Shown here piece by piece: positions 40,923 to 51,027 of a DNA stretch of 64,000 bases (positions within the stretch are counted from its first letter, which is position 1; each line of letters opens with the position of its first letter). Under the pieces are notes generated by a model that saw only the letters and a program-made list of their open reading frames with translations, made no database searches and had not been told where the DNA came from. The stretch is from the NCBI GenBank assembly GCA_024998685.1, contig JACOEH010000007.1:1-64000 (forward strand), in the 5' to 3' direction. The position numbers were made by a program, and so were the translations under genes. Source of the stretch: Nitrospira sp. (GTDB lineage: Bacteria; Nitrospirota; Nitrospiria; Nitrospirales; Nitrospiraceae).

Positions 40923-41611
40923 GTGCCGAGTGCTGATGGTGGGAACAGCCTGAAGAAACGCGTCGCACAATGGATGAAATGTTCGCTCTTGCCTCCGGTC
41001 GGAGCCGCTGCCATTCGCAGCATCGCACACTCGATGCGTTATGAGACTCGCGGCCATGAAGCGGTTGATGGGTTGTATCGGGAAGGGCGGAACATCATTC
41101 TCGCGTTTTGGCATGCCCAGCAGCTGATGATCCCGATCGGCTATCGAGGAGCCGGTGCCCATGTGCTGATCAGCCGGCATGGCGATGGGGAAATCATCGC
41201 CCGGATTATCGCCCGGTTCGGCCACGAAGCGGTTCGAGGGTCGAGTACGCGGGGAGGCGCCGGCGCGCTTCGGGCCCTGATCAAGCTGGGACGGTCTGGT
41301 CGGGATGTCGTGGTGACACCGGACGGCCCCAAAGGGCCGCGCCACGTCGCAAAGCTCGGAGTGATCCATCTGGCGAAGGCGACAGGTCTTCCCATCATGC
41401 CTCTGGCCTTTGCCTGTTCAAAAAAAAACTCTTTTCGAGCTGGGATCGCTACATGGTCCCGTACCCGTTTTCCAGAGGACTCTTTCTTTACGGGAATCCG
41501 CTCTGGGTCTCGCGCGAAGCCGATGACGCCTCGCTCGAGGCGACTCGCCTGGAGCTGGAGGTTATCCTCAATCGACTGACGGATCAGGCGGAACAAGACG
41601 TTATTCGTTGA
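40923..41611 (+). pseudogene. DUF374-type lysophospholipid acyltransferase, frameshifted
   Basis: The reading starts at GTG 40923 and codes a DUF374 protein (acyltransferase related to lipid A late acyltransferases) with AFWHAQQLMIP, SRHGDGEIIARI, STRGGAGALRAL and VVTPDGPKGPRHVAK. At an A9 run (41420-41428) the frame is lost; the neighbouring frame continues with LFSSWDRYMVPYPFSRGLF and ends at 41611 with the expected C-terminus. One more A restores the full protein of about 229 residues. This may be a real mutation, transcriptional slippage or a sequencing error. It lies between msbA and waaA. Confidence 0.78.
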
Positions 41612-41693: not shown

Positions 41694-43094
41694 ATGTGGA
41701 AGTTTCTCTATAACATCGGCCTACTTCTTGCTGCCCCTGTCATCGTGGGCGTTCTCCTGGCCAAGCCACGTTGCCGACAAGGGTTGGCGGAGCGATTCGG
41801 GTTGGAAAACGGTTTGTCTGGTTTGTTTGGTGGTGGAAACCCAGACCAGCCGGATCAACCAAATAAACCAGATGAACCAGATAAACTAAATAAATCCGAC
41901 AAACCAGTCATCTGGATTCACGCGGTGTCGCTCGGTGAAGTGGTGGCGGCGGCGCCGCTTGTGAAGGCACTGCACGAGCGCCATCCGGAGTTTCGCTACA
42001 TCGTGACGACGGTGACTGAGACCGGACGCGAAGCGGTCGAACAACGTTTAGAGGGTATCGCCGAACATCGATACGCTCCACTGGATTTTTCCTGGGCCGT
42101 GGCCGGTATGGTTCGGCGCCTGCGTCCAATGCTCTATGTGTTCGTTGAAACCGAAATATGGCCGAACCTACTGTGGACGTTACGAGAGCAGGATGTGCCT
42201 TCTGTGCTGGTGAACGGGCGGTTGTCTTCCCGATCGTTTCGCCGCCAGGATGTGCCCGTGATTCGGTCCTTCTATCGCTCCGTGCTTCAAACATTGACGC
42301 TCTGTCTGATGCAAACCTCTAGAGATGGAGACCGGCTGGTTGCGTTGGGGGCCGATCCGACGCGGGTTCATGTGACCGGCAATATCAAGTTTGATCAACC
42401 GTTGCCGAACGTTCGATCGGATGAGTCGCTTCGCCGAAACTTAGGCATTGATGAGCGCGAACAATTGATTCTTGCCGGCAGTACCCATCCCGGAGAAGAG
42501 GAACTGCTGGTTTCAGCTTATCGACAGATCGTGAAGACCCATCCCTCAACGGTATTGATATTGGCGCCTCGCCATATCGAGCGGGTGGAACGAGTCGAAG
42601 CGATGCTTCGAGAAGCAGGACTTGTCGTGCAGCGGAGGAGTCGGATTCGGGAGAAGCAATCCGGCCCGCGCGTAGTCATTTTGGATACCAGAGGAGAGTT
42701 GTCTCGCGCCTATCGAGAAGCAGTCGTCGCATTCGTCGGCGGGACGCTGGTTCCCGTGGGTGGGCACAATTTGTTGGAACCGGCTGTGTGGGGCACACCT
42801 GTCATGTTTGGACCCCACACGGATCATTGCGCTGAGGTCGCGACGCTCTTATCCGAGGCCGGAGGAGGTCGACGAGTGACGGGAGTGGAGGATCTTGTTG
42901 CCTCTCTTGAAGAATGGCTGGGTCAGCCTGAAATTCGATATCAGGTGGGGCAGGCCGCAAGACAGGCGGTGTTGAACAATCAAGGTGCGCTCACACGGAG
43001 TCTGGAGTTCATTGAAACCTGCCTCCGCGCGGCTCCTTCGTATTCCGACTCTTGTGTGGAGCCGGGGACGGGACCTCTGATGGCCAAACACTAA
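41694..43094 (+). CDS. waaA: 3-deoxy-D-manno-octulosonic acid transferase WaaA, with repeat insertion
   Basis: WaaA adds Kdo to lipid A at the inner membrane. The 466-residue protein has an N-terminal anchor (MWKFLYNIGLLLAAPVIVGVLL), the catalytic base region IHAVSLGEV, and FVGGTLVPVGGHNLLEPAVWG near the C-terminus. Between the conserved AERFGL and the start of the catalytic domain, residues about 40-71 are a low-complexity insert (GLSGLFGG then PNKPDEPDKLNKSDKP) encoded by a 9-bp-period inverted repeat. It is in frame, so the enzyme probably works. ATG 41694 gives the membrane anchor. Confidence 0.93.
   Translation: MWKFLYNIGLLLAAPVIVGVLLAKPRCRQGLAERFGLENGLSGLFGGGNPDQPDQPNKPDEPDKLNKSDKPVIWIHAVSLGEVVAAAPLVKALHERHPEFRYIVTTVTETGREAVEQRLEGIAEHRYAPLDFSWAVAGMVRRLRPMLYVFVETEIWPNLLWTLREQDVPSVLVNGRLSSRSFRRQDVPVIRSFYRSVLQTLTLCLMQTSRDGDRLVALGADPTRVHVTGNIKFDQPLPNVRSDESLRRNLGIDEREQLILAGSTHPGEEELLVSAYRQIVKTHPSTVLILAPRHIERVERVEAMLREAGLVVQRRSRIREKQSGPRVVILDTRGELSRAYREAVVAFVGGTLVPVGGHNLLEPAVWGTPVMFGPHTDHCAEVATLLSEAGGGRRVTGVEDLVASLEEWLGQPEIRYQVGQAARQAVLNNQGALTRSLEFIETCLRAAPSYSDSCVEPGTGPLMAKH
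41811..41905 (+). repeat. 9-bp-period inverted repeat R1 inside waaA
   Basis: The left arm (41811-41830) is TGTCTGGTT-like repeats; the right arm (about 41847-41904) is AACCAGATR-like repeats, so the RNA can fold into an imperfect hairpin. Same family as 45227-45398, 50044-50137 and 50502-50538. Confidence 0.85.
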
Positions 43095-43095
43095 C

Positions 43096-44187
43096 ATGCC
43101 ATTCCTGCATCCTGGACAACCGGTCCGTAAAGGGCTGTACTGGGTTGCCGGGTTATACGGCCTCATTATCCGATTTCGTCTGTGGTGCTATCGGAAAGGT
43201 TGGTTGACGATCACACGGCTGCCCTGTCGTGTGGTGAGCGTGGGCAATCTGACGGTCGGGGGGACAGGAAAGACTCCTATCGTCATACTGTTGACAGAAT
43301 GGTTCTTGGCCAAAGGGCAGAGAGTGGCGATTTTGAGCCGTGGGTACAAACGGACGAGCAAGGAACCTCGTCTTCTCGTGTCAGATGGATCACGAATTTT
43401 GGCCGGTCCGTTAGAAGCGGGGGACGAGCCGTTTCTCATAGCACAGCGTTGCCCACAGGCGATTGTCGCGGTAGGAGCCGATCGGGTTGCGCTGGGGCGA
43501 TGGGTGTTGGAACAACATCCAATCGACTGCATCGTGTTGGATGACGGCTTTCAACATCGGTCGCTTCATCGTGACGTCGATCTTGTGTTGCTGGATGCCA
43601 CCGATGCCGCAGGACTTGACGCACTCTTTCCGGCGGGAAGACTGCGGGAACCCTTACAGGAACTGGATCGAGCGAGTGCGGTCATGATTACCCGTGCCGA
43701 TTCGCGTCAGGATGTGGATGAGATCTATGGCCGATTGCGAGCGATCGGCGGTCCATATGAAGATGCCATTGAGGTTGTGTTTCGACCACAGTCCGTTCTG
43801 TCGATCGTTTCGGGTGAGCAACAATCGGTTGAATGGTGCAGAAGGAAAAAAGCATGGTTGGTCAGCGGCATCGGAAATAGTCGATCATTCCGTCGATCAG
43901 CCGAAACGATGGGGGTCGAGATTCTCGGTGAGACCGCCTTTGAAGACCATCATGGCTATCACCACGGTGATATTGAGAAGATTCGCGCCGATGTGCAAGC
44001 GACTGGTTGCGAGATCGTTCTGACGACTGAGAAGGACGGAGGGAAGCTGCTTCCCTTGCTCATGCCGAGCGACTCCTGGTGGATGCTTCGTCTTGGGACG
44101 GAAGTCGTGCGCGGAGAAGAGCGGCTGTACAGTTTGATCGACGGATCGCCACTCGGCGAGACGCGACAAGCGAGGTCTCGTGCGTAG
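43096..44187 (+). CDS. lpxK: Tetraacyldisaccharide 4'-kinase LpxK
   Basis: LpxK phosphorylates the 4' position of the lipid A disaccharide. The 363-residue protein has Walker A VGNLTVGGTGKTP (about 49-61), SRGYKRT, VGADRV and DDGFQHRSLHRDVDLVLLD, all family motifs. ATG 43096 directly follows the waaA stop by one base. Its C-terminus overlaps the start of the heptosyltransferase gene by 8 bases. Membrane-associated. Confidence 0.93.
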   Translation: MPFLHPGQPVRKGLYWVAGLYGLIIRFRLWCYRKGWLTITRLPCRVVSVGNLTVGGTGKTPIVILLTEWFLAKGQRVAILSRGYKRTSKEPRLLVSDGSRILAGPLEAGDEPFLIAQRCPQAIVAVGADRVALGRWVLEQHPIDCIVLDDGFQHRSLHRDVDLVLLDATDAAGLDALFPAGRLREPLQELDRASAVMITRADSRQDVDEIYGRLRAIGGPYEDAIEVVFRPQSVLSIVSGEQQSVEWCRRKKAWLVSGIGNSRSFRRSAETMGVEILGETAFEDHHGYHHGDIEKIRADVQATGCEIVLTTEKDGGKLLPLLMPSDSWWMLRLGTEVVRGEERLYSLIDGSPLGETRQARSRA

Positions 44188-45997
44188 GAATTTGCCTCGA
44201 AAAATTCTGGTGCGGGCGCCGAATTGGATCGGCGATGCCGTCATGTGCGAGCCGGCTGTCCGAGGGCTTCGGTCTCTGTTTCCCGAGGCGGAGTTGGCGA
44301 TGCTCGCCAAACCTGCCGTCGCGGAGCTATTCCTCTCCTATCCGGGGCTTCATAGCGTGCTTGTGTACGATGACAAGAAGGCTCATGCGGGGATTTCAGG
44401 AAAGTGGTCACTGGCCGATATGTTGCGAAGGCACCGCTTCGATTTGGCGGTACTGTTACAGAACGCGTTTGAAGCAGCATTTCTTACGTGGCTCGCCGGT
44501 ATCCCACGGCGATATGGGTATGCCACGGACGGAAGGGTCTTCTTTCTGACCGAACCGGTCGCTGTTCCCAACGGCCCTACGCCTGTGCATCAAGTCGAGT
44601 ACTATTGGAACTTATTGAAACCATTGGGACTGGCCGGTGGAGCTCCTCTCCCTACGCTGCTCATTTCGGCAGATGAGAAACGAACGGTCGACGTACGGCT
44701 TGCTTCAGCCGGTATCAATTCGTCGGATCTCATTATCGGTATCAACCCCGGATCGACCTATGGTAGCGCCAAACGTTGGTCGTCCGACCGATTCGCCGAA
44801 GTCGCGAGGCGTCTTGTGCGGCGATTGGAACAGGCCGAGAGCGCGCATGTCGCAGTGGTCATCCTGGGAGCGAAGGGAGAGGAATCGCTGGGAAAGGACA
44901 TTGCGGCTCAGATCGGTGGACGATCGGTTGTCCTATCCGGCGCGACAACCATTCGGGAACTCATGGCGGTGGTGAAGCGTTGTCGCGTGCTGATGACGAA
45001 CGATACAGGACCGATGCATATTGCGGCGGCTTTCGGTGTGCCGGTCGTGGCGGTGTTCGGTCCCACGGACTGGCGCACCACCTCTCCCTACGGGCAAGAA
45101 CGGTCGATTGTGCGGGAAGCCGTAGATTGCGCACCTTGCCTCCTCAGGGAGTGTCCCATCGATCACCGTTGCATGACTCGCATCCCCGTTGACCGGGTCT
45201 ATGAAGCGGCCGTGCAACAGTTGGGAGGTTCGTTTGGTTGGTCTGGTTTGTCTGGTGAGAAAAGACAGGTCGAAGGTTCATTTGGTTCGTCTGGTCTATC
45301 TGGTGCGCCGCATGCGAACGCATCGGAGATGAACCAAAGAAACGAGACCAACCAAATCAACCAGACAAACCAGATGAACCAAACAAACCAGACGAACATT
45401 CTTTCCGGCCACACCATTTTTCTCGATCGAGACGGAACGCTCAATCCCGACCCCGGCTATATTAAGTCGCCTGATCAGTTTGAGCTGTTTCCTGGGGTGT
45501 CCAAAGCGCTCGCCAGGCTGAAGCGGGTCGGTGCTCGATTAGTCGTCGTAACCAATCAATCTGGAATTGCGCGAGGATTATTATCGCGCGATGATCTCGA
45601 CGCCGTACATCTGAAACTCAAGCATCTCCTTGGTGGCGCAGGTGTGTCACTCGACGGGATCTATTTCTGCCCTCACCATCCTGACGACGGTTGCGACTGT
45701 CGAAAGCCGAACCGTGGGATGATTGACCAAGCGGTACGAGAATTGGGAGTGAATCTCGATCGATCCTATCTGATCGGCGACCATATCCGCGATATCGAGT
45801 TGGCGAAGAGGATTGGGGCGCGAAGTGTTTTGGTGACGACAGGAGTCATTTCTCCGCAGGAGGCAGAAAGACTGAAAGCCTCGGAGCCGGCTCCGGATTG
45901 GATCGCATCCTCGCTGGCGGAGGCCGCCGACTGGCTGTTGGCCGATGCAAGCAAGTTGCCCGTACAGATCCGTGATCGCCGGGTGGCGCATCCGTAG
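44180..45997 (+). CDS. Fusion of heptosyltransferase (WaaF-like) and GmhB-type phosphatase
   Basis: A 605-residue protein. Residues 1-345 form a GT9 ADP-heptose:LPS heptosyltransferase (VRAPNWIGDAV, GINPGSTYGSAKRW, TNDTGPMHIAAAFGVPVVAVFG). Residues about 408-600 form a HAD phosphatase like GmhB (FLDRDGTLN at about 414, CPHHPDDGCDCRKP zinc loop, GDHIRDIELAKRIGA), which makes heptose 1-phosphate. The joint, residues about 350-406, is entirely a 9-bp-period repeat (GLSG then NQTNQMNQTNQ). The two are usually separate genes. Start GTG 44180 overlaps lpxK. Confidence 0.9.
   Translation: MRRNLPRKILVRAPNWIGDAVMCEPAVRGLRSLFPEAELAMLAKPAVAELFLSYPGLHSVLVYDDKKAHAGISGKWSLADMLRRHRFDLAVLLQNAFEAAFLTWLAGIPRRYGYATDGRVFFLTEPVAVPNGPTPVHQVEYYWNLLKPLGLAGGAPLPTLLISADEKRTVDVRLASAGINSSDLIIGINPGSTYGSAKRWSSDRFAEVARRLVRRLEQAESAHVAVVILGAKGEESLGKDIAAQIGGRSVVLSGATTIRELMAVVKRCRVLMTNDTGPMHIAAAFGVPVVAVFGPTDWRTTSPYGQERSIVREAVDCAPCLLRECPIDHRCMTRIPVDRVYEAAVQQLGGSFGWSGLSGEKRQVEGSFGSSGLSGAPHANASEMNQRNETNQINQTNQMNQTNQTNILSGHTIFLDRDGTLNPDPGYIKSPDQFELFPGVSKALARLKRVGARLVVVTNQSGIARGLLSRDDLDAVHLKLKHLLGGAGVSLDGIYFCPHHPDDGCDCRKPNRGMIDQAVRELGVNLDRSYLIGDHIRDIELAKRIGARSVLVTTGVISPQEAERLKASEPAPDWIASSLAEAADWLLADASKLPVQIRDRRVAHP
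45227..45398 (+). repeat. 9-bp-period inverted repeat R2 in the waaF-gmhB linker
   Basis: Two TGTCTGGTT-type arms (45227-45256 and 45275-45303) and a long AACCAGACA-type arm (45330-45398, about seven units). The period of nine keeps the reading frame, which explains how it is tolerated in a gene. Confidence 0.88.
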
Positions 45998-49979: not shown

Positions 49980-50043
49980 GCGTTTGAAAGATCGTCGATT
50001 TTTCCGTTCACTGTAAGTGAGAGAGCGAAGCTGTGTCCGAATT

Positions 50044-50137
50044 GGGTTTATCGGGTTGCTGGTTTGTTTAGTTTATCTGGTTCATGACTCGGAACCAGAC
50101 AACCAAGAACCAAACAAACCAAATAAACCTGACGAAC
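50044..50137 (+). repeat. 9-bp-period inverted repeat R3 upstream of the S23-type gene
   Basis: Left arm 50044-50083 (GGTTTGTTTAGTTTATCTGGTTC-like; short form) and right arm 50091-50137 (AACCAAACA-type). The left arm is also complementary to R4 at 50502-50538, which would place the four-helix gene in the loop. Confidence 0.85.
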
Positions 50138-50143
50138 GAGATT

Positions 50144-50527
50144 ATGAAACTCACACGTTTTGAAGATTTGGATTGCTGGAAAGAAAGTAGACAGCTTACG
50201 CGTCAGATCTACGAGGCGGTTCATCAGAATCTGAACTGGCAAAGGGATGTGCGACTCTGCAGCCAAATCCAAAGCGCTGCTGGATCTGTGATGGCTAATA
50301 TAGCCGAAGGATGTGTCCGTCGGTCGAACAAAGAGTTCGTGCAGTTTCTCTTCATCGCGATGTCCTCTGCCGCAGAAGTCCAAAGTCATTTATACATTGC
50401 GGTAGATCAAGGATATGTGTCGAAGGAAATTTTCGAGTCGATTTACAAGCAAGCTGACAAGACGGCGAGAATCATTTCTGGTCTGATTAAATACCTTCGT
50501 TCCAAACAAACCAGATCAACGACATGA
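50144..50527 (+). CDS. Four-helix bundle protein (S23/IVP family)
   Basis: The 127-residue protein has FEDLDCWKESRQLTRQIYEAV and ASGSVMANIAEG-type motif (AAGSVMANIAEG), then FVQFLFIAMSSAAEVQSHL, the hallmark of the S23-type four-helix bundle first found in 23S rRNA intervening sequences. The family forms a homopentameric barrel; its role is unclear. ATG 50144 gives the family N-terminus; an in-frame ATG at 50084 would add residues coded by the repeat. It is flanked by inverted repeats R3 and R4 and overlaps the antiterminator start. Confidence 0.88.
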   Translation: MKLTRFEDLDCWKESRQLTRQIYEAVHQNLNWQRDVRLCSQIQSAAGSVMANIAEGCVRRSNKEFVQFLFIAMSSAAEVQSHLYIAVDQGYVSKEIFESIYKQADKTARIISGLIKYLRSKQTRSTT

Positions 50528-50538
50528 ACCAGACAAAC
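50502..50538 (+). repeat. 9-bp-period repeat R4 between the S23-type gene and the antiterminator
   Basis: AACAAACCAGATCAACGACA then GAACCAGACAAAC. It includes the stop region of the S23-type gene and the first five codons (MNQTN) of the antiterminator gene. Confidence 0.8.
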
Positions 50539-51027
50539 GCACTCCACTGGTACGCGCTTCGTACGAAATCACGCCATGAAAAACTGGTACGAGATCAGTT
50601 GAATAGGCAAGGAATCGAGCCGTTGCTTCCGACGGTCAAACGGCTGAGCCAATGGAAAGACAGGAAAAAGGAAATCGAGGTCCCGCTGTTCTCGGGATAT
50701 TGTTTCGTGCGGTTTTCTCAGCTCGAAAAGACGCCTGTACAAAAGATCGTGGGCGTCGTTGAAATCGTCGGCAGCGGAAGTCGACCCGAACCGATCCCGG
50801 AGCAAGAAATCGATGCGCTACGCCGTCTCATGACGAGCGTCCTTCCGTATGACCCCCATCCATACCTGCATGAAGGCATGAAGGTAGAGGTCGTCCGCGG
50901 GCCCTTGCAGGGTGCGCACGGCATTCTGTTGCGAAAAGAAAAGCGGCATCGCTTAGTTGTCGGAGTACGACTTATTCAGCAGGCGGCGGCGGTTGAAATC
51001 GACGTGAATGACGTAGTGCCGGTGTGA
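50524..51027 (+). CDS. NusG-like transcription antiterminator (UpxY/RfaH type)
   Basis: The 167-residue protein has an NGN domain (HWYALRTKSRHEKLVRDQL, about 8-110) and a C-terminal KOW domain (EGMKVEVVRGPLQGAHG...). It is a specialised NusG paralogue of the type that opens long polysaccharide operons. Its position at the head of the polysaccharide island fits. The start ATG and first codons (MNQTN) lie in repeat R4, and it overlaps the S23-type gene by 4 bases. Confidence 0.88.
   Translation: MNQTNALHWYALRTKSRHEKLVRDQLNRQGIEPLLPTVKRLSQWKDRKKEIEVPLFSGYCFVRFSQLEKTPVQKIVGVVEIVGSGSRPEPIPEQEIDALRRLMTSVLPYDPHPYLHEGMKVEVVRGPLQGAHGILLRKEKRHRLVVGVRLIQQAAAVEIDVNDVVPV

Follow-up and report, generated by a model that had tools for sequence, protein, structure and literature searches.

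An in-frame linker in the Nitrospira waaA gene built from a palindromic 9-bp repeat family of Nitrospiraceae

How a block of short repeats comes to lie within a single-copy gene of the essential type is the question raised by waaA, which encodes the Kdo transferase in a Nitrospira draft genome of 105 contigs (G000) and occupies positions 41694-43094 on the forward strand of the window, the whole 64-kb stretch of DNA that was analysed. The ORF is intact from the ATG at 41694 to the stop at 43094 and contains the Glycos_transf_N domain (PF04413, E 1.7e-61), and a relative in the PDB is the Aquifex structure 2xci (E 1.7e-39). The HAxSxGE motif is present with its Glu; H76, S79, G81 and E82 were invariant in 22 sequences, Glu82 being the catalytic residue. 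The original prediction placed an in-frame copy of a 9-bp repeat between the anchor and the catalytic domain of WaaA, and both the copy and its position were borne out. The N-terminal part of the protein (MWKFLYNIGLLLAAPVIVGVLLAKPRCRQGLAERFGLENGLSGLFGGGNPDQPDQPNKPDEPDKLNKSDKPVIWIHAVSLGE) contains a membrane-anchor segment with a helix at residues 2-23, the codons of which run through KPRCR (41694-41777, forward strand; AF2 model and pairwise alignments), and IWIHAVSLGE lies downstream; residues ~40-70 between them (LENGLSGLFGGGNPDQPDQPNKPDEPDKLNKSDK) form a low-complexity linker encoded in frame by DNA of the AACCARAYR family. TRF found periods of 9 and 27 bp at 41841-41907. The insert is an inverted repeat, a palindrome missed in the original prediction: antisense units at 41806-41832 (left arm, reverse strand, translated as GLSGLFG; unit and hairpin searches) are followed by a short loop with approximate limits of 41833-41852 (hairpin search) and by ~7 degenerate sense units at 41848-41910 (right arm, forward strand, translated as PDQPNKPDEPDKLNKSDKP; TRF and unit search), with 41811-41831 complementary to 41858-41878. 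Of the interruption of ~32 residues that had been claimed, the low complexity stands and the size does not, since insert-free congeners have a 13-residue linker unrelated to the repeat at this site, and the old linker appears to have been replaced, not merely interrupted, with a net gain of ~21 residues.

The AACCARAYR family is not confined to waaA. Two-unit matches with at most two mismatches numbered 16 in the window and 0-1 in 12 shuffles, and all three hairpins scoring 13 or more belong to the family, where shuffles gave 0-1. A second in-frame palindrome (45222-45397, forward strand; domain and unit searches) joins a heptosyltransferase domain to a GmhB domain in a fused gene (44180-45997), so that two window genes carry in-frame copies. 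The reading frame of the right arm differs between the two genes, waaA and the heptosyltransferase-GmhB fusion (NQT vs PDK). In most Nitrospira species examined the linker of the fusion comes from the 9-bp palindromic family, which would resemble read-through of an intergenic hairpin. An intergenic palindrome (50040-50143, forward strand; unit and hairpin searches) lies upstream of a PF05635 four-helix-bundle gene, and units at 50500-50544 (forward strand; unit search) mark its junction with a NusG-like gene; within 50040-50544 the PF05635 gene therefore has 9-bp units on both sides, and the NusG-like gene following it begins within them (MNQTN...). Genome-wide counts were based on pattern searches and 400-kb samples. 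Palindromes of the family occur at ~20 sites in this genome, mostly in gaps of 55-117 bp separating codirectional genes. Seventeen of 21 palindromic sites were called codirectional; at three sites in the window the neighbouring genes were overlooked by the gene caller, and with those set aside the remaining 18 sites, all outside the window, were 14 codirectional, 2 divergent, 1 convergent and 1 intragenic, the palindromes often lying only a few to ~20 bp from the adjoining genes. A third in-frame copy lies at local positions 408-475 in a prophage-like gene, the product of which is a portal/Mu F-like head protein containing a Mu F-type head domain; the gene belongs to a prophage-like region (L123, C97:124700-144000) that holds several copies within ~16 kb. 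Sixteen intergenic copies had on average 2.9 of six frames open, vs 1.1 after shuffling. Other palindromic families with 7-bp units (ACTCAGG/ACTCAGC, GAATGGT and GACTAAT types) fill similar intergenic places (L150-L189, 400 kb each of G000 and its congener G023).

Within Nitrospiraceae the family is an interspersed repeat of high copy number, pattern matches running into the hundreds in some genomes. Of 300 genomes sampled from the phylum, 23 contain the strict pattern, and most of these are Nitrospiraceae. A looser pattern gave 205+197 matches in one relative, where the backwards control was also high (108+82); the reversed pattern resembles the unit and is not an independent control, and shuffles were used in its place. 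Copies share the 9-bp units only, with loops and arm lengths that vary. No match was obtained when the window was searched against Rfam, and a plasmid search gave no similar DNA. Viral contigs yielded no exact palindrome and direct arrays in seven stretches only; long direct arrays of up to ~12 units without an opposite arm were seen on contig IMGVR_UViG_3300013103_000070 (L191, L193). The PF05635 gene was considered as a mobile partner and rejected, the repeat being present at 1 of 16 such loci and missing at 15, and a RAYT/Y1 transposase was likewise rejected as mobiliser, with no AACCARAYR arrays within ~1.5 kb at 12 PF01797 loci. No earlier description of the family was found in the openly accessible literature.

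The waaA site was then compared across the family Nitrospiraceae. In a first sample, the segment N-terminal to the catalytic Glu was 60-62 residues long in most congeners and 68-83 residues in seven, and all seven carried the AACCARAYR family. A wider search of 236 genomes of the order, plus fetched regions, found the repeat-type linker also in other genera (g25, g27 and probably g16) and in a deep groundwater lineage (L144); in four g27 alleles (L262, L272, L274 and L278) the length of the linker is kept and the palindrome is lost. When a linker was scored as long if 66 or more residues precede the catalytic Glu, alignment of homologues gave a split picture as to whether the loop is usually of unrelated sequence: 46 of 77 distinct Nitrospiraceae sequences have a short unrelated linker, and the lengthened linkers of the other 31, at the same site, are nearly all of the repeat family. 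On a tree of these 77 sequences, made with the linker removed, presence of the long state changes 14 times, at least 12 of these changes being forced by well-supported branches; the counts come from a single gene tree, some branches of which are weak. One old gain followed by many losses is possible, and the tree sets no direction; the linker would in any case seem to be a recurrent or old allele across several genera, not a one-off insertion. The expectation that a period of nine preserves the frame was confirmed by linker lengths, which in 27 alleles were 20, 23, 26, 29, 32 or 35 residues, or else 31, 34 or 37, leaving the third class modulo 3 empty (27/27). Because one of three classes is skipped, the lengths are consistent with gain and loss of 9-bp units. 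All insert alleles inspected are in one reading frame.

Comparison of close alleles suggests how the linker has changed. The pairs L270/L060, L038/L040 and L141/L146 are near-identical elsewhere in the gene and wholly different between the KPRCR and IWIHA codons. Thus L038 and its sister L040 share 92-100% identity outside the tract, falling to 57% over the flanking 30 bp and 78% over the flanking 36 bp, and the right flank of L038 is 97% identical to those of L036 (the allele of G000) and L141. The right end of the tract, at 41904-41940 on the forward strand (CCAGTCATCTGGATTCA..., codons PVIWIHAVSLGE), is 94-97% identical at the DNA level to insert alleles from distant, unrelated lineages. 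Since this right-flank similarity between lineages is at the DNA level, the linker and its immediate flanks appear to have moved together as a short tract with DNA-level homology. The waaA site would then have changed by exchange of cassettes and by gaining and losing 9-bp units, and not through a single clean insertion. The in-frame repeat of the original prediction holds; a precise insertion, for which it had proposed a test, seems unlikely, as relatives show the whole KPRCR-IWIHA tract replaced, the flanks exchanged and no clean empty site. At waaA and at intergenic junctions alike no target-site duplication was seen, and the flanking spacers are replaced, hence the missing empty site. One comparison is awkward. 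L036 and L126, the allele of the nearest relative, G136, are almost letter-identical in the core of the insert and differ in both immediate flanks, a pattern that a single tract exchange does not explain and that counts against the best explanation given below.

A comparable turnover was seen in spacers between genes. The DNA flanking ten intergenic copies was sought in six congeners, and eight junctions could be aligned. The genes adjoining the aligned gaps are mostly 89-98% identical to those of G136 (81-84% at two sites), and the G136 spacer is quite different at six of the eight gaps. Because spacers differ so often between genes mostly this similar, intergenic spacers must be replaced whole and quickly between species. 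At one aligned gap a 7-bp-unit sequence stands in G136 and G023 instead of the AACCARAYR element, and at two gaps (L110 and L122) the element is common to G000 and G136.

The structural context of the linker was taken from an AF2 model of WaaA (22 sequences, mean pLDDT 79), which has the anchor helix at residues 2-23, short helices up to residue 45 and the first Rossmann strand at 72-76. Residues 46-67 have pLDDT values below 50, so the insert is modelled as a disordered loop ahead of the first strand of the catalytic domain, leading to Glu82, in line with structural tolerance. The loop is rich in Pro, Asp and Gly. Whether the palindrome itself is selected was approached at the level of the DNA. 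An arm pairs better with the opposite arm of its own palindrome than with arms of other species, even after row and column centring (p 0.00005 for all 27 alleles and 0.00085 for 17 non-redundant alleles at waaA; p 0.04 at the heptosyltransferase-GmhB site). Such a preference is predicted both by a function of the hairpin and by concerted evolution of the units; it could mean selection on the hairpin, and counts to that extent against the best explanation. Codon-shuffle tests in waaA gave no sign of strong hairpin selection: compared with synonymous controls, folding energies were lower by a mean of only 0.5-1.0 SD, the G000 copy lay at -0.9 and -0.4 SD, and several short alleles folded worse than their controls. 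As the strength of the hairpin goes only slightly beyond what coding for the protein would impose, and some alleles have lost the palindrome, passive tolerance is favoured over selection, the two having been left as alternatives in the original prediction.

The explanation we prefer, with moderate confidence, is that the waaA insert is a copy of a palindromic spacer found throughout Nitrospiraceae, old or recurrent at this site, slipping in 9-bp steps, moved by short-tract recombination, and tolerated rather than needed. The element consists of arms of tandem 9-bp AACCARAYR units, or of the variants GACCAGACA and AGCGAGACA, facing each other across a short loop, and chiefly fills short gaps between codirectional genes. 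Since the elements are unusually stop-free, a copy landing at a length-tolerant junction within a gene could yield a flexible linker on translation. For WaaA the junction is the loop that joins the membrane-anchor segment to the first strand of the catalytic domain. Slippage of units would shift the length of the linker in 9-bp steps, recombination over short tracts would swap ~80-130 bp between the KPRCR and IWIHAVSLGE codon blocks across lineages, and the linker would be neutral. Observation covers the anatomy of the palindrome, its membership of the family, its patchy spread, the swapped tracts and the modelled disorder of the loop; slippage, recombination as the vehicle and neutrality are inferred.

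Other readings must be weighed against this one. Many independent insertions of a transposing palindrome (RPE/MITE-like) at a hot spot in waaA would account for the high copy number, the polymorphism from site to site, the dozen or more presence changes at the waaA site alone and the copies in the prophage-like region and on viral contigs. We nevertheless regard such transposition as rather unlikely, because it sits poorly with the missing target-site duplications and clean empty sites, the exchange of flanks along with the insert, the single frame of the inspected alleles and the lack of a RAYT-type transposase next to copies at the 12 PF01797 loci. Improbable to a greater degree is selection on the hairpin as an RNA or DNA element that acts in mRNA processing, pausing or translation coupling, is kept in operons and is incidental in waaA. 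Its location in intra-operon gaps close to the neighbouring genes, the better fit of arms to their own partners and the comparable role proposed for STRR hairpins (PMC2670836) speak for it, whereas the small excess of folding in waaA with several short alleles below their controls, the frequent absence of the palindrome from the corresponding gap of near relatives and the majority of WaaA genes lacking it speak against.

That the stretch is an ordinary low-complexity protein linker, shaped by selection on the protein and codon slippage and merely resembling the repeat, might be thought from its disorder and its Pro, Asp and Gly content. This is very improbable and largely refuted by the intergenic copies of the same DNA family, and neither the palindromic DNA nor the different right-arm frames at two genes (NQT vs PDK) agree with it. 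An artefact of assembly, conceivable in a draft of 105 contigs, has next to no probability and is already refuted, as the same type of linker occurs in independent assemblies, including the single-contig genomes G023 and G112.

A separate observation concerns the DUF374 (PF04028) gene at 40923-41611, just upstream of waaA, which is split at a stretch of exactly nine A (41420-41428, TCA AAA AAA AAC) by a frame change that puts its conserved C-terminal part (SWDRYMVPYPFSRGLFLYGNP) in the -1 frame. The exact A9 and the same frame change were present at 48 of 48 distinct loci, probably reflecting conserved programmed frameshifting or transcriptional slippage. This frame change is unrelated to the AACCARAYR repeat.

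We put forward, as a tentative and on present evidence doubtful generalization, that Nitrospiraceae carry distinct junction-seeking palindromic spacers with a translatable 9-bp unit, which repeatedly replace whole gaps and interdomain linkers. If true, new protein linkers, and gene fusions such as heptosyltransferase-GmhB, would keep arising from such spacers. The waaA site offers a countable natural experiment on repetitive DNA in an essential gene, in which one site has switched at least 12 times across dozens of species and near-identical pairs differ in having the linker, and it suggests a route by which interspersed repeats turn into flexible linkers and join genes.

Among known repeats, REP/BIME sequences are likewise interspersed intergenic palindromes, but they are mobilised by RAYT, and no RAYT adjoined AACCARAYR copies at the 12 loci; the AACCARAYR unit is presumably also unlike REP in sequence. 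The TAACTGA repeats of Beggiatoaceae form many intergenic short-unit arrays that are patchy across lineages (PMC4679880), as in the present family; they differ in being direct repeats of a heptamer, with one indirect repeat noted, placed mainly just 5' of start codons. Rickettsia palindromic elements (RPE) lie in frame within protein genes and are predicted to be structurally tolerated (review PMC10969869), and the Nitrospira palindromes also occur in frame in coding genes; however, RPE measure ~150 bp, have a family sequence that is conserved and lie in ORFs in about half of cases, whereas the Nitrospiraceae repeat has 9-bp units, no longer consensus and a mostly intergenic location. The STRR of filamentous cyanobacteria are short tandem units that form intergenic hairpins of unknown function (PMC2670836), a likeness to the AACCARAYR family, yet their units are of 7 bp, so that gain of a unit breaks the frame, where AACCARAYR units of 9 bp stay in frame within genes. 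STRR are cyanobacterial and AACCARAYR belongs to Nitrospira, though separate 7-bp palindromic families share those genomes. The AACCARAYR family thus mixes features of RPE and STRR, lacks one defining feature of each, and is a member of neither.
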